The notes beneath the pieces were generated by a model. The model worked only from the letters and a program-made list of their open reading frames with translations. It was not told the DNA's origin and did no database searches. A stretch of 64,000 nt of DNA from Gemmatimonadaceae bacterium (GTDB taxonomy: Bacteria > Gemmatimonadota > Gemmatimonadetes > Gemmatimonadales > Gemmatimonadaceae), in the NCBI GenBank assembly GCA_019637445.1, contig JAHBVS010000002.1, forward strand, positions 124,001 to 188,000, written 5' to 3'. A program made the position numbers and the translations under genes. This document shows positions 17,749 through 31,939 of this stretch, piece by piece (within the stretch, counting starts at the first letter, position 1; each line of letters begins with the position of its first letter).

Positions 17749-18813
17749 ATGGAAAAGATCATCAAGGCGGCGGTGGAGCGCGGCGCAAGCGACCTGCACA
17801 TCAAGGCCGGCGACGTCTTTCGCGCGCGCATCGACGGCAAGCTGGTGCCGCTCACCAAGCAGTCGCTCACGCCCGAGCAGACCAAGAGCATCGCGCTGCG
17901 GCTGATTGCCAACGAGGACGACCGGGCGCGCATCGACAAGATCAACGACTACGACTGCTCCTGGGGCGCGCCGGGCATCGGGCGCTTCCGCGTAAACATC
18001 CTGCGGCAGCGCTCGAGCTTCATGATCGTGATGCGCGTCATTCCCTTCGAGGTGCCGAGCTTCGAGCGGCTGGCCGTGCCGCCCGTGCTCAAGCAGATCT
18101 CCGAGGCCGAGCGCGGGATGATCCTCGTCACCGGTGTGACGGGCTCGGGCAAGAGCACGACGATGGCGGCGATGATCAACCACATCAACCAGCACGCCAA
18201 CAAGCACATCGTCACGCTGGAGAACCCGATCGAGTTCCTGCATCGCGACCTGCAGAGCTCGGTGACGCAGCGCGAGATCGGCGTGGACACCGCCGACTTC
18301 CGGATGGGCCTGCGCGCGGCACTGCGCCAGGATCCCGACGTCGTGCTCATCGGCGAGATGCGTGATGCTGAGACCATCGACACGGCGATGAAGGCGGCTG
18401 AGACGGGGCACCTGTTGATCTCGACCGTGCACACGCCCGATGCGCAGAGCACGGTGCTGCGCATCATGGCGATGTTTCCGCCCGAGGAGCAGGACGTCGT
18501 GCGCGTGCGGCTCGCCGAGTCGCTGCACGCCGTCGTGTCTCAGCGGCTGCTGCCGCGCAAGGATGGGAACGGGCGCGTGGCCGCGTTGGAGATCATGATC
18601 GTGACACCGACGATCCGCGACTTGATGCTCGACCGTGACCGGGTCAACGAGATCCGCGACTACATCGCCGCCGGCCGCGAGCAGTATGGGATGCAGACCT
18701 TCGACCAGCATCTGGAGCAGCTGGTGCAGGAGGAACAGATCGAGCTCAAGGTGGCACTGGCGGCATCGACGCGGCCGAGTGACTTGGCGCTCAAGTTCAA
18801 CATGGGTGGATGA
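17749..18813 (+). CDS. pilT: Type IV pilus retraction ATPase PilT
   Basis: Hexameric ATPase that depolymerises the pilus for twitching motility. It begins MEKIIKAAVERGASDLHIKAGD, the PilT N-terminal domain. Walker A GVTGSGKST is at about residues 129-137; the Walker B region is DPDVVLIGEMRDAETI; and TGHLLISTVHT is the His-box region. 354 residues, normal. The start is the ATG at 17749 rather than upstream in-frame codons inside the dehydrogenase gene. No other pil gene is in the window. The next gene overlaps its stop. Confidence 0.94.
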   Translation: MEKIIKAAVERGASDLHIKAGDVFRARIDGKLVPLTKQSLTPEQTKSIALRLIANEDDRARIDKINDYDCSWGAPGIGRFRVNILRQRSSFMIVMRVIPFEVPSFERLAVPPVLKQISEAERGMILVTGVTGSGKSTTMAAMINHINQHANKHIVTLENPIEFLHRDLQSSVTQREIGVDTADFRMGLRAALRQDPDVVLIGEMRDAETIDTAMKAAETGHLLISTVHTPDAQSTVLRIMAMFPPEEQDVVRVRLAESLHAVVSQRLLPRKDGNGRVAALEIMIVTPTIRDLMLDRDRVNEIRDYIAAGREQYGMQTFDQHLEQLVQEEQIELKVALAASTRPSDLALKFNMGG

Positions 18814-19688
18814 TGCGCAGCCTGAGCGGGGTGTTTGGACCGGTCACGACGCCGTTCGTGACAGGGTCGGAGGATCTGGACCTTGAGGGCTTCGCGGCGA
18901 ACGTGCGCGCGCACCTGGCGGAGGGGCTATCGGGAATCGTCGTTGCTGGCTCGACGGGTGAGGCAGCGCTGCTCGCAGAGGATGAGCGGGTACGGCTACT
19001 CTCGACGGCGCGGCCGCTGATTGCTGCCGACCAGTGGCTCATTGCGGGCTGCGGGGCGGAGAGCACGCGGCAGACGGTCGCGCGCTGCGCCGCCGCGAAG
19101 GGCGCCGGCGCGGATGCGGTGCTCGTCGTGGCGCCGCACTACTACGCGTCCTCGATGCAGATGGCGGAGCTGCGGACGCACTATCGGCGCGTGGCGGACG
19201 AGTCGCCGCTTCCGGTGATGCTCTACAACATCCCGAAGTACATGCATTTCGCGTTGCCGGCGGAATTGGTGGCGGAGCTGGCCGAGCACGAGAACGTGAT
19301 TGGGATCAAGGACAGCTCGGGGTCGCTGGATCAGCTCGCGGGGTTCCTGAAGGCGCAGTCGGATTCCTTCTCCGTGATCACGGGGTCTGGGTCGACGTTC
19401 CGGGCGGCGCTGGAGGCTGGGGCACGCGGCGGGATTCTCGCCGTCTCACTCTTTGCCGCAGACCTCACGCTCAAGGTGTTGCGCGGCGTGCAGACTGCGA
19501 ATGCGCACGGGATCACGGAGGCGCAGGCGGCGCTCAAGCCGATGGCGGACGTGATTGTCGCGAAGCTCGGCGTGCCCGGAGTGAAGGCGGCGTTGGATGC
19601 GGTGGGGAAGGTTGGTGGGGTGCCGCGTCAGCCGTTGTTGGCGTTGGATGCGGGGGGACGAGCCGAAGTGGCGGGGGTGTTGGCGTAG
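18810..19688 (+). CDS. Dihydrodipicolinate synthase (DapA) family aldolase
   Basis: Class I aldolase with a TIM barrel. Visible: GSTGEAALL near residue 47, YNIPKYM with the catalytic Tyr around residue 135, and the Schiff-base lysine in GIKDSSG around residue 163. 292 residues. The family includes DapA, N-acetylneuraminate lyase and 4-hydroxy-2-oxoglutarate aldolase; the product here may be any, and no dap neighbours help. Two overlapping ATG codons (18810 and 18813) overlap the pilT stop. Its end marks the left border of the accessory region. Confidence 0.88.
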   Translation: MMRSLSGVFGPVTTPFVTGSEDLDLEGFAANVRAHLAEGLSGIVVAGSTGEAALLAEDERVRLLSTARPLIAADQWLIAGCGAESTRQTVARCAAAKGAGADAVLVVAPHYYASSMQMAELRTHYRRVADESPLPVMLYNIPKYMHFALPAELVAELAEHENVIGIKDSSGSLDQLAGFLKAQSDSFSVITGSGSTFRAALEAGARGGILAVSLFAADLTLKVLRGVQTANAHGITEAQAALKPMADVIVAKLGVPGVKAALDAVGKVGGVPRQPLLALDAGGRAEVAGVLA

Positions 19689-19818
19689 GGCTGTTTCGTC
19701 CTGCTCACAGCTTTGCATTCACAGGCGGGGCAGGCATGGATGCGCCGCTGGGGCGCGTCGGGCGCGCGGTTGGCAAGTGATTGGATTGGTGGAGCTTGCG
19801 CGCCGGCGTGTGTGGCAG

Positions 19819-19867
19819 ACCTACCGGTGCATATAGCACCTGGCGCGTGCGAGATGCACTTGTAGGT
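19819..19867. other. Three-stem junction-like inverted repeats upstream of the first cassette junction
   Basis: In the 264-nt gap after the aldolase gene, an outer stem ACCTAC/GTAGGT (19819-19824 with 19862-19867) encloses two small hairpins with the same 4-nt stem sequence, GTGC/GCAC (19827-19840 region and 19847-19859 region). It could be an RNA element or a decayed recombination site. No coding frame is seen in 19689-19952. Confidence 0.35.
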
Positions 19868-19893
19868 GTGAATGATGCTGCTTGCTAATTCAC

Positions 19894-19900
19894 GTTAGGG
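19894..19900. other. Integron-type core site at the left cassette junction
   Basis: GTTAGGG, matching the consensus GTTRRRY except for the last base. Its next base is C, so the run GTTAGGGC is the exact complement of the GCCCTAAC that opens attC 1 at 20393. No RYYYAAC partner exists in the 200 nt upstream, so this is not a foldable attC. It may be an attI-like point, a scar, or the border of the array. Confidence 0.6.
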
Positions 19901-20526
19901 CGGTCGGTTTGCGTTCGTGACCGCCGACAATGTGCACGGGTAGTTCTCAGCGATGCGACAACGGCCCCTCATCCTTGCGGCTCCGTCAGGCTGGCGCTGG
20001 GTTGCCCGCGTTTCGAGCGCAGTTGTGGCGTCCTTCGGGCTCGCAAGCTGCAATCCGGACAACTTGACCGTGTGCAACGGCGGCGCCCCAAACTGGGACC
20101 GCCCCTCGATTCAGGTGCGGGTCACGGACACTGCCTGGTCCGAGGTGAACGCAGCGGGCTTCACGCTGACGCAGCGTGCGGACGGCTTCCTCGACTCTCT
20201 TGTCGTGCCAGTTGACACATCAGCTTACGGTTGGCTTCACGTGGAGAGCGCGGTGGGACGCCCTGGCGTCTATGACATTTCCATTTCGCATCCGGCGTAC
20301 GAGACCTGGGTGAGAACGGGACTTCGCGTGACCAGTGGCAGCTGCGGCCTGCGCACCTGGAGACTAGCAGCGCTTATGGTGCCGCGCGCGACGCCCTAAC
20401 GACGCTTGCAGCAGATGGCCGTGCGTCGGAGGCGGCGGCGGGGCCGCCGCCTGTTGGCCTAGGGCGAGGTGTTTGCGGCGGCCCCGCCGCCGCGTCTTAT
20501 TTGAACGGCCACAGCTGAAGCAAACG
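19895..20526 (+). mobile_element. Integron gene cassette 1
   Basis: Cassette unit running from the base after the G of the left core site to the G of the core at 20526. It contains one gene in the usual orientation, with its stop inside the attC core, and ends in a full attC. The end sequences are complementary (TTAGGGC at the left, GCCCTAA at attC R''), as a circular cassette intermediate demands. No integrase gene lies in the window. Confidence 0.7.
19953..20399 (+). CDS. Cassette-borne predicted lipoprotein of unknown function
   Basis: 148 residues. The N-terminus has an Arg-containing n-region, a hydrophobic stretch (about residues 17-31) and a lipobox-like FGLASC, so it is probably exported and lipid-anchored. 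The rest alternates short beta-like strands (VRVTDTAWSEVNAAGFTL, YDISISHPAYETWV), reminiscent of carboxypeptidase-regulatory-like or Ig-like folds. I do not recognise the family. It starts 58 nt into the cassette, and its TAA lies inside the attC core (20397-20399), a common arrangement in integron cassettes. Confidence 0.65.
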   Translation: MRQRPLILAAPSGWRWVARVSSAVVASFGLASCNPDNLTVCNGGAPNWDRPSIQVRVTDTAWSEVNAAGFTLTQRADGFLDSLVVPVDTSAYGWLHVESAVGRPGVYDISISHPAYETWVRTGLRVTSGSCGLRTWRLAALMVPRATP

Positions 20527-20532
20527 TTAGGC
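20393..20532. other. attC site 1 (long, with GC-rich internal stem)
   Basis: R'' GCCCTAAC (20393-20400) and R' GTTAGGC (20526-20532) bracket a 140-nt imperfect palindrome. Stem segments: TAACG with CGTTA, GCTT with AAGC, CAGC with GCTG, GGCC with GGCC, with an extra unpaired G at 20408, as attC bottom-strand folding uses. The interior has a perfect 19-bp stem (20432-20450 with 20475-20493), making a large variable terminal structure. R'' matches the left core at 19894, R' matches the end of cassette 2. Confidence 0.8.
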
Positions 20533-20540
20533 GGACTGGG

Positions 20541-21757
20541 TTCAAAGGGTCGATGCAACACCTTCATGGGTCCCTTCTATATGGAGGCAGTTGCGATGTT
20601 CATCCCCAGCGCGCACGGCTACACCTGGCAGCAGCGCACCGAGCTCTGGCGGCGCTACCGCGCCGGCGACTCGATCCGTGAGATCGCCGCCGACCTCGCC
20701 AAGAACCCCGGCGCCGTCCACGGCGTGATCCGCCTGGAGGGCGGCATCTCGCCGCGCCTCCGCGCCCGCTCGGAGCGCGTGCTGTCGTTCGAGGAGCGCG
20801 AGGTCGTCTCGCGGGCGCTGGCCGCGGGCGAGTCCTTCCGCGCCATCGGGCGTCGCCTCGGCCGCGCGGCGTCGACCATCAGCCGTGAGGTCGCGCGGCA
20901 CGGCGGCCGCACGAGGTACCGTGCGATTCGCGCCGACGGCCGCGCGTGGGAGTTCGCGCGCCGGCCGAAGGCCTGCCGCCTCGCGTCCCGGCCGCGCCTG
21001 CGCTATCTCATTGCCGTGAAGCTCAAGGCCCAGTGGTCGCCGGAGCAGATCAGCGGCTGGCTGCGCCGCGAGTTCCCCCACGCGCCGGAGCTGCAGGTGT
21101 CGCACGAGACGATCTATCGCTCGCTCTACGTCCAGGCGCGCGGCGTGCTCAAGAAGGAGCTGCTCACGCACCTCCGCACGGGGCGCGTCGTGCGGCGCTC
21201 CCGCGCGTCGACGCGCAAGGGGCAGGGGCGCGGCCAGATCGTCGACGCCGTCCCCATCAGCGCGCGCCCGGCGGAGGCCGCGGACCGCGCCGTGCCGGGC
21301 CACTGGGAGGGCGACCTCCTCGCGGGCGGCGGCAACACGCACATCGCCACGCTCGTCGAGCGCAGCTCGCGCTTCGCCATCCTCGTGAAGGTCGCGAGCA
21401 AGGAGCCGAGCCAGGTGGTGCCCGCGCTCATCCGGCAGATCCGCCGGCTGCCGACGCACGTCACGCGCTCCCTCACCTGGGACCGCGGCACGGAGCTCGC
21501 GCACCACCGGCGTTTCGCCGTGGCCACCGGCGTGCAGGTCTACTTCTGCGACCCCTACAGTCCCTGGCAGCGCGGCACGAACGAGAACACCAACGGCCTG
21601 CTGCGGCAGTACTTCCCGACCGGCGCGAGCCTCGCCAACGTTACGCAGCGGCAGCTCGACGCCGTCGCCGACCGGCTCAACGGCCGGCCCCGCAAGACGC
21701 TCGACTTCCACACGCCGGCGGAAGTGTTCGACGAAGCCGTTGCATTGATTGCTTGAA
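20541..21757 (+). mobile_element. IS30-family insertion sequence
   Basis: A complete element of about 1.2 kb. Candidate terminal inverted repeats are 20541-20565 and 21733-21757, 25 nt each with 18 matches, including an identical ATGCAAC block and CTTC/TTCAA ends. It holds one intact transposase. No clear 2-3 bp target duplication is visible, so the exact ends may be off by a few bases. Confidence 0.75.
20596..21756 (+). CDS. IS30-family transposase
   Basis: 386 residues, the usual size. An N-terminal helix-turn-helix (GDSIREIAADLAKNPGAVH) and a second helix pair (AIGRRLGRAASTISREVARHG) match IS30 DNA-binding regions. The DDE triad is Asp240 (HWEGDLL), Asp296 (TWDRGTE) and Glu330 (NENTNG), with 33 residues between the last two, the IS30 spacing. 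I chose the ATG at 20596 because GGAGG lies 8 nt upstream; ATGs at 20566 and 20581 are in frame too. It appears intact and could be active. Confidence 0.92.
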   Translation: MFIPSAHGYTWQQRTELWRRYRAGDSIREIAADLAKNPGAVHGVIRLEGGISPRLRARSERVLSFEEREVVSRALAAGESFRAIGRRLGRAASTISREVARHGGRTRYRAIRADGRAWEFARRPKACRLASRPRLRYLIAVKLKAQWSPEQISGWLRREFPHAPELQVSHETIYRSLYVQARGVLKKELLTHLRTGRVVRRSRASTRKGQGRGQIVDAVPISARPAEAADRAVPGHWEGDLLAGGGNTHIATLVERSSRFAILVKVASKEPSQVVPALIRQIRRLPTHVTRSLTWDRGTELAHHRRFAVATGVQVYFCDPYSPWQRGTNENTNGLLRQYFPTGASLANVTQRQLDAVADRLNGRPRKTLDFHTPAEVFDEAVALIA

Positions 21758-21799
21758 TTCACCGGACATCAGAGACCTTCGTGTCATAGGAGATGCGCA

Positions 21800-22312
21800 G
21801 TGAGAGTCTTCGGCCTCCTCCTCTTCCTGCTCCCGTGGCACGCCCTCGCAGCGCAGACACCGGCGGTCGAGTGCGCCGCCGTGCCGCCAGACTCCGTGCG
21901 ATTCGGATCACAGCCGGTGTTTGCGGCTTGCGAGGTCGAGACGCCAGCCCGCCCGCGTGGAGGCGGGCGCCCCACAGGGGTGGTATTTCCAGACGGCATT
22001 CAATGCCTCGTCGCCGAACTCGAATTCGTGGTCGACGAGCGCGGTGTACCTGCTCTCGAGCGCGCGCGCGTACTCTTTGCGACCTCGCCGGAGTTCGGGG
22101 AGGCGGCCCTGCGGGCGCTCCGTCGCCGACGCTTCACACCCGCCCGACGCGAGGCGACGGCGGTTCGGCAGCTCGTCACCGATCGCATCGTTGTCGAGGA
22201 TGAGCGCGTGCCCTTCGTGGCTGGGCGTCCGGGGGATCAGCGCCCCCCAGCTTGCCCCCGTCCCGGTGCCGCTAGCAATGGTTCTCGCTTCACGCCGTAC
22301 CGCCTAACGTGA
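21800..22312 (+). CDS. Cassette-borne secreted protein with a TonB C-terminal-like domain
   Basis: 170 residues. Signal peptide VRVFGLLLFLLPWHALAAQ with cleavage near AAQ. The middle and C-terminal part (about residues 70-130) has VAELEFVVDERGVPALERARVLFATSPEFGEAALRALRRRRFTPA followed by a V-rich strand, the pattern of TonB C-terminal/energy-transducer modules, here without a transmembrane anchor. The start is GTG at 21800 with AGGAGA 6 nt before. The TGA lies inside attC 2, typical for a cassette. Function unknown. Confidence 0.65.
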   Translation: MRVFGLLLFLLPWHALAAQTPAVECAAVPPDSVRFGSQPVFAACEVETPARPRGGGRPTGVVFPDGIQCLVAELEFVVDERGVPALERARVLFATSPEFGEAALRALRRRRFTPARREATAVRQLVTDRIVVEDERVPFVAGRPGDQRPPACPRPGAASNGSRFTPYRLT

Positions 22313-22356
22313 CTTGATGGGCTGACAACCGGCTGCGGCACAAGCGCACGTTATGC
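22302..22356. other. attC site 2 (short form)
   Basis: 55 nt from R'' GCCTAAC (22302-22308) to R' GTTATGC (22350-22356). TAACGTG (22305-22311) pairs with CACGTTA (22347-22353), and CTTG (22313-22316) pairs with CAAG (22341-22344), with an unpaired base between the two helices. Size and layout are those of classical attC sites. R'' complements the start of cassette 2; R' belongs to whatever cassette followed. Confidence 0.8.
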
Positions 22357-22365
22357 GCCCTGGGC

Positions 22366-22494
22366 TCAGAAGGTCGATGCGGCGAACGCCAGCGCTGCAT
22401 ATGAACACCCGGCGACGACGGCGCAGAAGAGCACGCGAAGGTGCGATCTCCTTTGGAGGTCCGCGAGTGGCACGATCACTTTGGATGTCTCCAT
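22366..22494 (-). CDS. Possible small membrane protein
   Basis: A 42-residue frame starting METSKVIVPLADLQRR and ending in one hydrophobic helix (about 20 residues, VLFCAVVAGCSYAALAFA). AGGGG lies 4 nt before the ATG. It falls in the 206-nt gap right after attC 2, on the minus strand, downstream of the amidohydrolase gene. The high GC content makes chance frames common, so this is tentative. No other gene is seen in 22313-22562. Confidence 0.25.
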   Translation of the reverse strand: METSKVIVPLADLQRRSHLRVLFCAVVAGCSYAALAFAASTF

Positions 22495-24736: not shown

Positions 24737-24809
24737 GTATATCTGCCGGACTGCGCCCCCGCAAGGCTGTGCAGCGACCCGACCACCGGTCACGCCGGCC
24801 CCGCACAGA

Positions 24810-25605
24810 CTATAGCGGGATAGGACGTGCAATCGGGGTCGGTCGAGTACACCGTCCGATCGCCGACCGCGCGAGCACCGATGAACGGGTTGCGGCGGGG
24901 CGTCGGGGCCGTGCTCGGGGGGCGCGGGAGGCTGCCGTCGCTTGGCGCGCGGCGCCCAGTCCGGACGGTCTTCGGGTCGAGGAGGAACACCGCGCGCCGC
25001 AAGGTGCGGCCGTGGACGCGCGTGCGCGGAGGTGCGTGAGGATCCGGTCGATCACCGACGCCTGCGTGATGAAGGCGACGATCCGCATCGTGCCGTGGCA
25101 GGATGGGCACGCGAGGGGGGCGACTTTACAGATCTGGCGCGAGTCGTCCCGCGGGCACGATCGGCGGCGGCACCGCCATGGCCGTGGACTCCGCCTGCCG
25201 TCGCATCCCGCGCGGGCGGCTGGCAGACCAGCCGTAGCAGCGCGTGGTGACGTGCCCCTTCTCAGGGGTGTGGACCAGCTCCCGGGCCAGGAACTCCAGC
25301 GGGTCCACGGTCTCGGTCCCCGCCGTTGGCCCCTCCGACTTGTCGGAGCGATACGCCGCCGCCTGCGCGGTGTCGAACAGATCCAGGCTGAAGCGCCGGA
25401 GCACGGCGCGGCGGAACGCCTCGGTCAACGGAGCGGTGTCATGCACGGCCCATGCGACGAGCGTCCCGTCGGGCCGAAAGCCGCCGTCGGTGACGAGCGG
25501 ATGGAGGTGCGGATGCCAGTTTGCCCCTTGCCGTGCGTCTTCAAGCAGGCCACGATGCCCACCGCGCGCTCCGGGACCGGGCAGCGCCGAGCATACGCCC
25601 GACTC
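24810..25605 (-). pseudogene. IS91-family transposase remnant
   Basis: Pieces of one transposase in several minus-strand frames: VACLKTHG near 25560, then (shifted) NWHPHLHPLVTDGGFRPDG and AWAVHDTAPLTEAFRRAVL, then YRSDKSEGPTAGTETVDP and HVTTRCYGWSASRPRGMRRQ (25126-25446), then (shifted again) MRIVAFITQASVIDRILTHL near 25050. The N-terminal zinc-finger half is missing, an internal segment after DLFDTAQAA is deleted, and at least two frameshifts are needed. The catalytic HPHLH-type region is present but out of frame, so the gene is dead. Confidence 0.8.
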
Positions 25606-25780
25606 GGGTGCGGCCCGTCATCGTTCCGTTGCGCGGCGGGCCCTCTGGTCGCAACGTTCGCGAGGCGCCGGAATGGCGATGATTGCTGCAGACGGGCGTC
25701 TATGGAAGCGCGCTGCGCGCGCATGTTATTGGAGCGCCCGCTGCAGAAGCTGACGCCTTGCGGGCCGTCCACACATCTCC

Positions 25781-27093: not shown

Positions 27094-27387
27094 ATGCGGA
27101 AGAAGCAGCCGAAGGCGTACAGCCTGGAGTTCCGGGAGGAGGCGCTGCGACGGGTGCTGGAGGGCTCGACCCCGATCCGGGCGCTCGCGCAGGAGCTGGG
27201 CGTGCACGTGGAGACGCTCCGCAATTGGCGCCGCGACGCGCGGGTGGCGGGGTATGCGGAGCCGGACCAGCGTCCCAAGACGTTGGCGGAGGAGAACCGC
27301 GAGCTGCGGCGCGAGAACGCGCGCTTGAAGGAGGAGCGCGACATCCTAAAAAAAGCGACGGCCTTCTTCGCCAGGGATGCCCGCTGA
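27094..27387 (+). CDS. IS3-family transposase OrfA
   Basis: 97 residues. A helix-turn-helix at the start (SLEFREEALRRVLEGSTPIRALAQELGVH... ETLRNWRR) and a C-terminal leucine-zipper-like coiled coil (TLAEENRELRRENARLKEERDILKKA) are typical of IS3 OrfA. AGGAGG lies 5 nt before the ATG. The frame crosses the A7 run at 27348, where OrfAB fusion would form by a -1 shift. Confidence 0.88.
   Translation: MRKKQPKAYSLEFREEALRRVLEGSTPIRALAQELGVHVETLRNWRRDARVAGYAEPDQRPKTLAEENRELRRENARLKEERDILKKATAFFARDAR
27348..27354 (+). other. Putative -1 frameshift site for OrfAB
   Basis: Seven A residues read in the OrfA frame as the heptamer A AAA AAA, a slippery sequence. A -1 slip leads into the frame that encodes KYAFIRAHARTWRV, the standard N-terminus of IS3 OrfB. 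Confidence 0.6.
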
Positions 27388-28252
27388 AGTATGCGTTCAT
27401 CCGCGCGCACGCCCGCACGTGGCGCGTAAGCACGCTGTGCCGCGTGCTCGGGGTGTCGAGGGCCGGCTCAAGTGGCGGGCGGAGCCGTTCAGCAAGCGCC
27501 GACAGTCGGACGCGGCGCTGCTAGTGCACGTGCGGAAGCACTTTTACCGACTGCGCCGGCGCTACGGCAGCCCACGGCTCTGCCGCGAGCTCCGGGCAGA
27601 GGGCCACGTGTGCAGCGAGAAGCGCGTGGCGCGGCTGATGCGGCTCGCGGGGCTGCGGGCGAAAGGCGCGCACCGCTTCGTGGTGACGACGAACTCCGAG
27701 CACACGCAGCCCGTCGCGCCCAACCGGCTCGGCCGGCGTTTCGCGGTCGGCACCCGGACGGACCTCAATCGCCGCTGGGCGGCCGACATCACCTACATCC
27801 CCACGCACCAAGGATGGCTCTACCTGGCCGTGATCCTCGACGTGGCGTCCCGCCGCGTCGTCGGCTGGGCGACGAGCGTCCGGCTCGATCAGGAGCTGGT
27901 GCTCGCGGCGCTCAAGATGGCGCGCTGGCGCCGCGGGGCCTGCGGCGCGCTGCACCACTCCGACCGGGGATCGCAGTACGCGAGCGCGGCCTACCAGCGG
28001 GCGCTCCGGGACGGCGGCATGGTCTGCAGCATGAGTCGGACGGGCGACTGCTGGGACAACGCGGTGGTGGAGAGCTTCTTCGCGACGCTGACGAAGGAGC
28101 TGCTCGATGACGGCGTATTCGAGACGCGCGAGGACGCGCGCCACGAGCTTGGCACCTTCATCGAGGCGTGGTACAATCGGGAGCGGCGACACTCGTCACT
28201 GGGCTTCCGCTCGCCGGTCGAGTACGAAACGCAGGTCTGTCGGGCAGGCTAA
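27377..28252 (+). pseudogene. IS3-family transposase OrfB, frameshifted
   Basis: The body (from about 27468) is a normal integrase core with Asp137 (WAADITYIPT), Asp196 (HHSDRGSQYAS) and Glu232 (VVESFF), with 35 residues between the last two (DD35E), ending RRHSSLGFRSPVEYE. However, the usual OrfB N-terminus (KYAFIRAHARTW...GVSRAG) lies in another frame, 27354 to about 27467, so one base appears lost near 27465. The listed frame starts with an unrelated Arg/His-rich stretch. Alternatively translation starts internally and the enzyme is shortened. Confidence 0.7.
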
Positions 28253-28281
28253 CATGGGTGTCCACGGGAGCGGGTGAACTC

Positions 28282-29571
28282 CAGAATATCACTTACGACG
28301 CCTCCGGCAACGTTGCGACTCAGAAGAGCATTCGACGCGTCTGGACCCCAGTCATGTGCGAGGATACGTTCTCGCGTGCGACTGGCGGCCATCTCTGGAC
28401 CTGGAACTTCTACGATGCGAACGAGAAGCCCCGACGGGTCCAGCAGTATCGGGTTGTCAATGACACTGTTGGTGGCGTAGCGCAGACGCACGACTATTGG
28501 TATGACGCGCTGGGGCGTCGGGTGCTGGCGCACACGTACGCAGACACGCTTGGTTGCGGTGATCCTCCGACCACCAGCCCGCATCCTGAGGCGTGCCAGC
28601 AGTCGCTGACGCGCGCCGCGTGGGACGGTGACTTCCTTCTCTGGGAGTCGCGGCGGCCTGCGGCCTGGAATCTGTCGCCAGCAACGCTAGACGTTTCTCC
28701 CTCGAACGATGCGTGGTACGGCCAGCGACGGAACATGCAGGCGGGCGCCATCGACGTGCCTCTGCTGGTCTGGAACGGCAGCGGGGTCGGGCTCTCGATC
28801 ATTCGAAACTGGCGCGGGAACGCAGCAGGCGAGATCCAGATCTCGGGAACGACACTCGGCTACGAACCCGTTTGGCCAGCTGCGCAGGTCGACATTCGGC
28901 ACGCTCCAGATGCGAGGACCAGCCCCCCACAGACCAACAGCTGGTGGGGGAGCCTCGTGAGCGATCAGGCTGATGCCACGGGGCTGCTCTATCGCCGAAA
29001 TCGATACTACGATCCGCAGACGGGTCGATTCACGCAGGAGGACCCGATCGGGCTCGCGGGCGGGCTGAATCTGTACGGATATGGGGATGGCGACCCCGTC
29101 AACTCGGGCGATCCGTTTGGGCTATGTCCAGACTGCCTCTTCGATGTTGCCATGATCGTCGCAGGAATCGCCGACATCAAGAAGAACGGGCTAGGGATCG
29201 GGAACGGTCTCGCACTCGCGATCGACGTCGTCGCAGCGGTCGTTCCGATGGTTCCGGCGGTCGCCGGGGCAGGAATGCGCAACGCACGTGTCGCGGCGGC
29301 GGTGCGGCGCGGCAACCAAGCGCATGACGCTTACTTCGCGGAGAAGACTGCCGAGGGAGGCTGGAACGTCAACAAGACCCTTGGGAAGGAACGCTTGAGA
29401 CCTGATGCGTGGAAACGCGACGGCAACCACATTATCGTTGAGGACCTCAAACCCAACACCGAGAGCGGACGGCGGGCGGCAGCCGCGTCAGCGAGGAAGT
29501 ACGAGCGCGCCGCTGCGCAGCAGTGCCCGGAATGCACGTACGAGTTTCGTGCCAAGTACTATGACCCTTGA
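28282..29571 (+). CDS. Truncated Rhs protein with C-terminal nuclease-like toxin domain
   Basis: Only the 3' part of an Rhs gene remains; the frame enters from the IS3 end with no natural start (first internal ATG 28354). It holds YD repeats (ITYDASGNV, YWYDALGRRV) and the Rhs core hallmark GLLYRRNRYYDPQTGRF...DPIGLAGGLNLYGYGDGDPVN, closing at DPFGL (29111-29125). The variable tip of about 147 residues has a hydrophobic stretch, then RPD (29398-29406) and EDLK (29440-29451), a pattern like PD-(D/E)xK nucleases. Likely a displaced polymorphic toxin tip. Confidence 0.7.
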   Translation, partial: QNITYDASGNVATQKSIRRVWTPVMCEDTFSRATGGHLWTWNFYDANEKPRRVQQYRVVNDTVGGVAQTHDYWYDALGRRVLAHTYADTLGCGDPPTTSPHPEACQQSLTRAAWDGDFLLWESRRPAAWNLSPATLDVSPSNDAWYGQRRNMQAGAIDVPLLVWNGSGVGLSIIRNWRGNAAGEIQISGTTLGYEPVWPAAQVDIRHAPDARTSPPQTNSWWGSLVSDQADATGLLYRRNRYYDPQTGRFTQEDPIGLAGGLNLYGYGDGDPVNSGDPFGLCPDCLFDVAMIVAGIADIKKNGLGIGNGLALAIDVVAAVVPMVPAVAGAGMRNARVAAAVRRGNQAHDAYFAEKTAEGGWNVNKTLGKERLRPDAWKRDGNHIIVEDLKPNTESGRRAAAASARKYERAAAQQCPECTYEFRAKYYDP

Positions 29572-29577
29572 TCGCCG

Positions 29578-30402
29578 ATGCTAGCCTCCATCATCTATCA
29601 CTCAACAGATTTTTCGGAGCGTTCCACTCATCTCGCTGGCCTGATACAGAGTCTGAGCGCTGCATCTGGTCGCCGGACGGTCGTTGGGTGCAAACATGTG
29701 CGGCGCGAGTCGACCCGTCCGTCGCGACGAGTTCGCCTAACTACCGAAATCGAGCGGACTCTGATTGCGGATGCAGCTGCTGGCGAACTGTCAGCCGTAA
29801 TGCTGGATTTTGAGGGCGATGCGTTGGAAGGTTCTCGCCTTGAAGTGGATCTCTGGTTGTCGACCGCCGTAACGTCTCGGCGTGCGGCCTATCCGTTCGA
29901 GGTCAAGCTGATACTTCGGCCGGGCGACGGGACGCGTGCGCTCGGCAGTTTTTCGACGATCACGATCGAATGCTTCGCCCAGCTTCGCGCATCCTACGGC
30001 TTCATTCATCGCGCGAGAACGTACGCGGAGGCTCAGATGGAGTTGGACGCGATTCCCTCATCGTTGCTAGGCAGTGAACCTTCGGACGACGAGCGAGAGC
30101 ACTGGGCCTGGCTTGGGTTCTGGCAGCGTTATCGCCATGAGGTTGGCGACTACGTTCGAACTGCGTACTTGGGCAACCTTCTGGGTTCTGCGCTGGTTGA
30201 CCGACTAGGCGGCTTGTCCACGCTGCAGGCTGAGGCCCCGGCGGCGGTTATCGAGGCCATTCCGTCGGGAGGTGTGTACTTGCAGGCTGAAGTCGAGGGA
30301 GACTGGGTTTCGAGAGACTCGATCGATTCTCTCGCGAGGTATCTGCGCCACGTCTCGCTGGAGGCACAGCACCCTGAGTTCGCGCCGACCCGCGGATCGT
30401 AG
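29578..30402 (+). CDS. Candidate immunity protein for the adjacent Rhs toxin
   Basis: 274 residues of unknown family, predicted soluble, no signal or membrane segment. It starts 6 nt after the Rhs stop, the place where an immunity gene is expected, and is followed by a strong terminator. Charged and aromatic residues are frequent (EHWAWLGFWQRYRHEVGDYV). Codon use is visibly less GC-biased than in the flanking housekeeping genes, fitting recent acquisition. The immunity role is inferred from position only. Confidence 0.55.
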   Translation: MLASIIYHSTDFSERSTHLAGLIQSLSAASGRRTVVGCKHVRRESTRPSRRVRLTTEIERTLIADAAAGELSAVMLDFEGDALEGSRLEVDLWLSTAVTSRRAAYPFEVKLILRPGDGTRALGSFSTITIECFAQLRASYGFIHRARTYAEAQMELDAIPSSLLGSEPSDDEREHWAWLGFWQRYRHEVGDYVRTAYLGNLLGSALVDRLGGLSTLQAEAPAAVIEAIPSGGVYLQAEVEGDWVSRDSIDSLARYLRHVSLEAQHPEFAPTRGS

Positions 30403-30564
30403 CGAGGCGGGTTTCCTTCGGGGCTGCGACCGATTTCGATGGCCGCGTCCCGATTGCGCGTGGCCTACGTGTCGAGGGCCTCGTGCTCATTGGCGAACAG
30501 TGAGCGCCGATCCGGGGTACTCAGACCTTGGTTGCCTCCGACGGCACTCTCCGTAGATTTCTTC

Positions 30565-30592
30565 AACGCCCCGCCTGCCGGGGCGTTTTTTT
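30565..30592 (+). terminator. Intrinsic terminator upstream of purA
   Basis: 9-bp stem AACGCCCCG/CGGGGCGTT around a 5-nt loop (30574-30578), directly followed by seven T. It ends the Rhs/immunity unit and marks the right border of the accessory region; purA starts 66 nt later. It is the clearest intrinsic terminator in the window. Confidence 0.88.
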
Positions 30593-30658
30593 GTGGTTTT
30601 TCGCCGCCCCTCCACTGGGCCGGCCGCGCGCCCCCCTCGCCGCCCTCGCAGACCAAGA

Positions 30659-31924
<1,266 letters not shown>

Positions 31925-31939
<15 letters not shown>

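Follow-up and report, generated by a model that had tools for sequence, protein, structure and literature searches.

An integrase-less cassette array with an attI-like boundary in a Gemmatimonadaceae genome, and an IS30-family group found at attC ends

Satellite cassette arrays that coexist with an integron integrase gene, intI, elsewhere in the genome have been found in about half of Xanthomonas genomes (PMC12444791). Insertion sequences (IS) that target one end of attC sites are described, in a passage of PMC11187229 with reference to Tetu & Holmes 2008 and Post & Hall 2009, as the IS1111-attC group of the IS110/IS1111 family, which includes ISKpn4 and ISPst6. The IS30 element of E. coli makes a 2-bp target duplication and has preferred target sequences (PMC9333248). 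The array described here lies in a 64,000-nucleotide stretch of Gemmatimonadaceae DNA, called the window (contig C2, positions 124001-188000, of genome G000, which comprises 3.35 Mb in 7 contigs). Coordinates given without a contig are those of the window, and its features are on the + strand unless marked otherwise. As a cluster of attC sites lacking integron integrases (CALIN), the array belongs to a class already known. It is probably a small integron platform without an integrase of its own, placed where 11 kb are inserted between dapA and purA, supplied with IntI in trans and entered by an IS30-family element that targets attC.

The cassette array in the window is real. A sequence-only reading of the window had claimed three core sites and the bookkeeping of cassette insertion between them, and at the first two junctions the complements are exact as claimed. 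At 19894, core 1 reads GTTAGGG(C), the reverse complement of the attC1 R'' (G)CCCTAAC, with R'' at 20394-20400, and core 2, GTTAGGC at 20526, complements the attC2 R'' GCCTAAC (22302). This delimits cassette 1 (19895-20526) and, together with the ends and target duplication of an inserted IS, cassette 2 (20527-22350 with the IS; about 593 bp in its native form). R'' is thus complementary to the cassette's own 5' core in both window cassettes (2/2), and the consecutive pairs of the main array of this genome, checked by eye, are all consistent with the same rule. The two cassette genes stop inside their attCs, as had also been claimed: gene 1 (19953-20399) at a TAA (20397-20399) within the attC1 R'', and gene 2 (21800-22312) at a TGA (22310-22312) within attC2.

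The covariance-model search that the sequence-only reading had proposed supports both sites. Model R1 was built from 17 attCs of G000 (main array and one satellite), none of them from the window, and model R2 represents the attC base, the outer 27 nt of each end, from 31 attCs of the genus with the window excluded. Across those 31 sites 99.8% of the stem cells are paired, with 34 two-sided changes, a level reached in 0/500 shuffles. Under R1, attC1 (20394-20532) scores 117.7 bits (E 1e-25); it is 93-96% identical to main-array sites of G000 and its single-stranded fold has z = -7. The short attC2 (55 nt, 22302-22356) is weak under R1 (16 bits, E 0.07); under R2 it scores 27.3 bits (E 1e-5) and is the top match in the 64 kb. 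Exact R''/R' bookkeeping with the attC2 spacing occurred in 12/3000 dinucleotide shuffles (p about 0.004). No Rfam family matched the window, and a fixed-offset scan for attC arm complementarity, its criterion too strict, gave no match. The idea that these are chance hairpins and not genuine cassettes can be practically dismissed. It draws on the weakness of attC2 under the full-length model, but independent models find the two sites (excluding chance for attC1), the bookkeeping is improbable in shuffled sequence, and both cassettes have homologues in attC arrays of congeners.

The product of cassette gene 1 is a putative lipoprotein, with a lipobox LASC and no Pfam or NCBIfam family. An attC array at a different locus, in G002 (contig C9), holds a 41% homologue of it, adjoining two attCs. 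Cassette gene 2 encodes an exported TonB_C-like protein, with a weak TonB_C match and a signal-like N-terminus, and has a 50% homologue, likewise at a different locus, in G015 (contig C5) flanked by decayed attCs. Both products had been described as exported; the lipobox and the N-terminus, seen by eye only, agree with this. A further site, missed by the sequence-only reading, lies at 25671-25761 (R1 56.4 bits, E 2e-11). Both of its cores are lost, and it is 89% identical over 187 bp to an intact G002 attC (GCATAAC...GTTATGC) with about 100 bp of cassette tail; it is therefore a decayed attC. Compared with G002, its paired core bases have changed together, from AAC/GTT to GGC/GCC, so that the stem pairing is kept.

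With attC1, attC2 and the decayed site the window holds at least two attCs, and a search with the TIGR02249 profile (cut-off 265 bits), run against the whole of G000, gave no match in C2:124001-188000. The description of the array as lacking an integrase therefore holds for the vicinity, but not for the genome, since a full-length IntI of 394 bits is encoded at C2:622959-623900, about 479 kb from the window array. Judging by its sequence this IntI looks intact. The main array is co-oriented with intI and extends to the end of contig C2; it probably continues at the start of C3. Main array and window array share a common attC family. In all, 25 forward-scored attC places were mapped in the main array and the satellites of G000, with other attC clusters at C2:382-385 kb and C1:1061-1065 kb and a single site at C1:1699 kb.

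Among the congeners, 11 of 17 have an intI above the cut-off and 12 of 17 have R1 matches. In the closed genome G012 the intI is at 2.333 Mb and large arrays are found at 2.335-2.409, 3.121-3.157 and 1.337-1.343 Mb. Satellite arrays are thus a habit of the genus. The usual integron arrangement has intI in the direction reverse to the array. In these genomes (L017 7888-11905; G012:C1:2333039) intI runs in the same direction as the cassettes, and attI is downstream of the intI stop. The satellite at C2:381-384 kb (L019 6091-9379) contains a cassette gene with a SIR2_2 domain and two cassette open reading frames (ORFs) without a Pfam match; these are possibly defence genes. In the satellite at C1:1060-1062 kb (L020 6249-8494), the products of the first cassettes are a DUF4268 protein and a GIY-YIG-like protein, T5orf172.

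The sequence-only reading also needs correction at the left boundary of the array. The first junction is an attI-like L-R site, CTAATTCAC^GTTAGGG (19885-19900), which matches the attI of G000, G012, G002 and G011 and the starts of two other satellites. The main attI reads CTAATACAC^GTTAGCT in G000 and CTAATCCAC^GTTAGGT in G012. Attachment-site and IS-end patterns were scanned through a 2.08-Mb set of DNA. The pattern CTAAYNCAM^GTTA, derived from some of the array starts, was found at 7 distinct places, all of them array starts, 4 beside intI and 3 in satellites (window, C1:1060 kb and G012 3.12 Mb); three of them, in G002, in G011 and in the G012 satellite, came as new matches. The leader of the window array (19689-19893) has a homologue in that of the C1:1060-kb satellite, with 60% identity over about 183 bp and z 12.6 in local alignment against 500 shuffles (11.0 without the last 14 nt). 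For G012, its attI leader and the leader of its 3.12-Mb satellite align with z 23.5. The attI-like junction and the shared leader are the reasons for reading the array as an attI platform that has no intI. No precedent for extra attI sites was found in the open PMC literature.

The position of the array was also compared among relatives, as the sequence-only reading had suggested. On the left is a dapA-like gene of the DHDPS family (18810-19688; Pfam DHDPS 1.2e-51), conserved in synteny in congeners, and on the right is purA (30659-31939; Adenylsucc_synt 1.9e-173), which adjoins dapA in congeners. The gap between them is 10.97 kb in G000. In G015, G010, G011, G012 and G008 the spacer is 0.12-0.3 kb and contains no attC, and the window leader is absent from the congener spacer. 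It is 1.4-1.5 kb of other sequence in G003 and G005, and 4.9 kb in G001; R1 found no match in the inserts of these three genomes. Congeners therefore have the locus without the array, and the situation that would have spoken against cassette mobility, the same sequence at that place in genomes without it, was not encountered.

Two other origins for the array have to be set against a platform. The distant IntI could have put cassettes into a non-att (attG) site between dapA and purA where there was no prior platform. Satellites do coexist with a distant intI, off-target integration is among the proposed routes to CALIN (PMC8618304), and Loot 2024, as cited in a passage of PMC12444791, reported attG insertion. 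However, the 200 bp before the first core are homologous to the leader of another satellite and end in an attI-like L-R motif, and cassette insertion would bring no shared leader; this origin is unlikely. No close relative in which the left boundary is empty turned up. The array could instead be the relic of a complete second integron that has lost its intI. Since the intI of the genus is directly upstream of attI and co-oriented, its deletion would leave just leader, attI and cassettes, and the decay of the third attC suggests age. Nevertheless, tblastn of the sequence upstream of the window array and the other satellites finds no remnant of intI, and the end of dapA at 19688 leaves 205 bp; a relic is doubtful. 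An attI-like platform remains the reading followed below.

Two thirds of cassette 2 is an IS30-family element, the native cassette being about 0.6 kb. The sequence-only reading, in speaking of both cassette genes, overlooked this element and its transposase. The IS (1229 bp, 20535-21763) begins 2 bp after the attC1 R' core and is flanked by a GG target duplication (20533-20534 and 21764-21765). Its transposase gene (20596-21756, 386 aa) matches NF033563 with 277.5 bits, where the cutoff is 80. A second end of the same clade, a solo left end, is found at 22359-22380, again 2 bp after an R' core, that of attC2. Since it stands in this way behind the third core, GTTATGC at 22350, the window records two insertions of the same IS30 clade. 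The third core is where the sequence-only reading had put it, but a clean third cassette starting there was rejected, since what follows it is the solo IS30 end. A 51-nt direct repeat was likewise rejected as a cassette leader; at both of its sites it is attC L'/R' sequence plus an IS30 end. The 22-nt end pattern occurs in 13 distinct contexts in the scanned DNA, all of them IS ends or the solo end at 22359-22380, and a reversed-pattern control gave 0.

Thirteen copies of the clade with an intact left end were compared, from five genomes: one each in G000, G003 and G175, three in G005 and seven in G012. G175 belongs to another genus than G000. Ten of the 13 are exactly 2 bp after an attC R' core, and the left end is always towards the attC. 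Both ends are present in 12 copies, which could be used to test for a duplication, and an exact 2-bp duplication is seen in 8. In G012, with 91 model-detected attCs, five of seven copies are at this position, for which the chance under uniform insertion is of the order of 1e-21; a BLAST search of congener DNA matched attC and IS together in G012. The transposases of the attC-targeting elements are monophyletic (support 0.994) and separate from other IS30-family relatives, and R1 found no match at the loci of relatives outside the clade. An empty site is also available: a cassette that reads GTTATGG-CG-ACCAG in G005 reads GTTATGG-CG-[IS]-CG-ACCAG in G012 (3143 kb). The cassette behind the IS at this place (G012:C1:3143-3145 kb, L253) opens with a short ORF similar to an addiction-module antitoxin, and IS-free versions of it occur twice in G005. 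Searches of plasmids and viruses for the IS gave nothing, or only distant IS30s (66-69% in the best matches).

It might be supposed that the copies share their position through IntI, which would carry an IS inside a cassette along with it, so that one IS-bearing cassette was copied repeatedly with no targeting by the transposase. This is very improbable and is refuted in the main. Over the 300 bp beyond the IS right end, no two of the 12 complete copies have related sequence, and the attC sequences and cores differ among copies. The 2-bp duplications and the empty site also argue against it, as do identical IS copies outside arrays: of five G012 copies that are 100% identical, three are at attC and two are elsewhere. 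Targeting by the transposase is thus preferred. The target of the clade is ...ACGTTRRRY-NG^, of which 2 bp are duplicated; the left end of the IS always faces the attC. The attC-targeting IS30 group appears to be new, and no earlier report of an IS30 at attC was found in the open PMC literature.

Several observations weigh against the platform reading or against targeting. The single-stranded fold of attC2 is only modestly better than that of shuffles (z about -2). The window leader does not resemble the attI of its own genome, with which only about 10 bp can be aligned (z -1.2). For this reason the site is called attI-like and not attI, and a function as attI rests on the L-R motif and the analogy with G012. 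Cassette material makes up only part of the 11-kb insertion, much of which is of other kinds (amidohydrolase, PaaX, IS91 remnant, IS3, RHS fragment). Four of the 12 two-ended IS30 copies have no exact duplication, and three of the 13 surveyed copies are not at an attC. The sites of two of these three have ACACGT or CACG in common at an equal distance, and that of the third retains TATGCGG. Such non-attC sites suggest that the transposase may recognise the duplex sequence ACGTTRRRYNG rather than a hairpin.

In the proposed mechanism, the platform would be made up of the attI-like leader (19689-19893), the two cassettes, whose attCs look functional, and a decayed remainder. The IntI encoded about 479 kb away may recombine the folded bottom strands of attCs in trans, and may be able to exchange cassettes between the main array and the satellite platforms. 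The IS30-family element, of a clade that inserts specifically at the attC R' end, entered cassette 2 within its 5' end, downstream of attC1, sparing the attC and the G^TT crossover. With both of these intact, the IS should ride along whenever cassette 2 moves. On balance, the wider picture that is favoured is one of several attI platforms dispersed on a single chromosome and served in trans by one IntI, together with an IS30 clade specialised for attC R' ends, whose insertions leave the recombination site whole so that the element becomes cassette cargo.

Satellites with an attI-like start on the chromosome of a single IntI, with congeners in which the locus is empty, offer a natural test bed for the departure of cassettes from a main integron. 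In the IS30 clade there would be a second transposon lineage, evolved independently, homing on the recombination sites of cassettes. An IS30 element in the leader of a cassette can cut the gene off from upstream promoters or supply a new one. Lying outside the attC and inside the cassette, it can also travel along when the cassette moves. Transposons would thereby have a direct means of shaping cassette arrays.

The 11-kb insertion contains, besides the array, an amidohydrolase gene, a PaaX-like regulator, a Y2 (IS91-type) transposase remnant, the decayed attC, a RibD_C gene, an IS3-type pair and an RHS fragment. The Y2 remnant (24800-25650, - strand) is frameshifted and ends just before the decayed attC. 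The IS3-type transposase pair is at 27094-28252 and is followed by the RHS core fragment (28276-29571, TIGR03696), which has a divergent C-terminus; the ORF after it (29578-30402) could be an immunity gene. Directly 5' of purA, at 30547-30595, a sequence conserved in many congeners has a TAGATT-like -10 box immediately followed by CCAACGCCCCG..CGGGGCGTTTTTTTGTG. The latter is a hairpin like that of an intrinsic terminator, at the presumed start of the purA transcript, and is possibly an attenuator.

The window array is like a CALIN in having two intact attCs and no intI nearby, with an intI elsewhere as in Xanthomonas. Unlike a CALIN, it has an attI-like site as its start, preceded by a leader that it has in common with another satellite, and it holds an attC-targeted IS. 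It resembles a sedentary chromosomal integron in that its attC family is that of the main array and its cassettes are mostly of unknown function, whereas the window locus has no intI and only two intact cassettes. As with attG insertion, cassettes are found outside the main array of a genome with IntI, but on the left the array is bounded by an attI-like site whose leader is shared, and not by a lone degenerate site.

For the IS, the nearest parallel is the IS1111-attC group, whose members also target one end of cassette attC sites. To our knowledge, targets of the attC type are otherwise known only from that unrelated transposon family (IS1111/IS110). Membership of the group was rejected, since the best family of the window transposase is IS30, with an rve (DDE-type) domain and not the DEDD transposase of IS110/IS1111. 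The insertion also differs in its 2-bp target duplication. The window IS is, moreover, located 2 bp outside the R' core, in the next cassette, so that the attC is left whole. With the IS30 of E. coli it shares the family (NF033563), the 2-bp duplication (GG/GG in the window) and the preference for certain target sequences; its related terminal inverted repeats also fit the IS30 family. Known targets of the E. coli element are its own inverted repeats and hot spots close to palindromic, whereas the clade in the window targets the attC R' end. It is the attI-like platforms, and above all the attC-targeting IS30 group, that set the window array apart from a plain CALIN.

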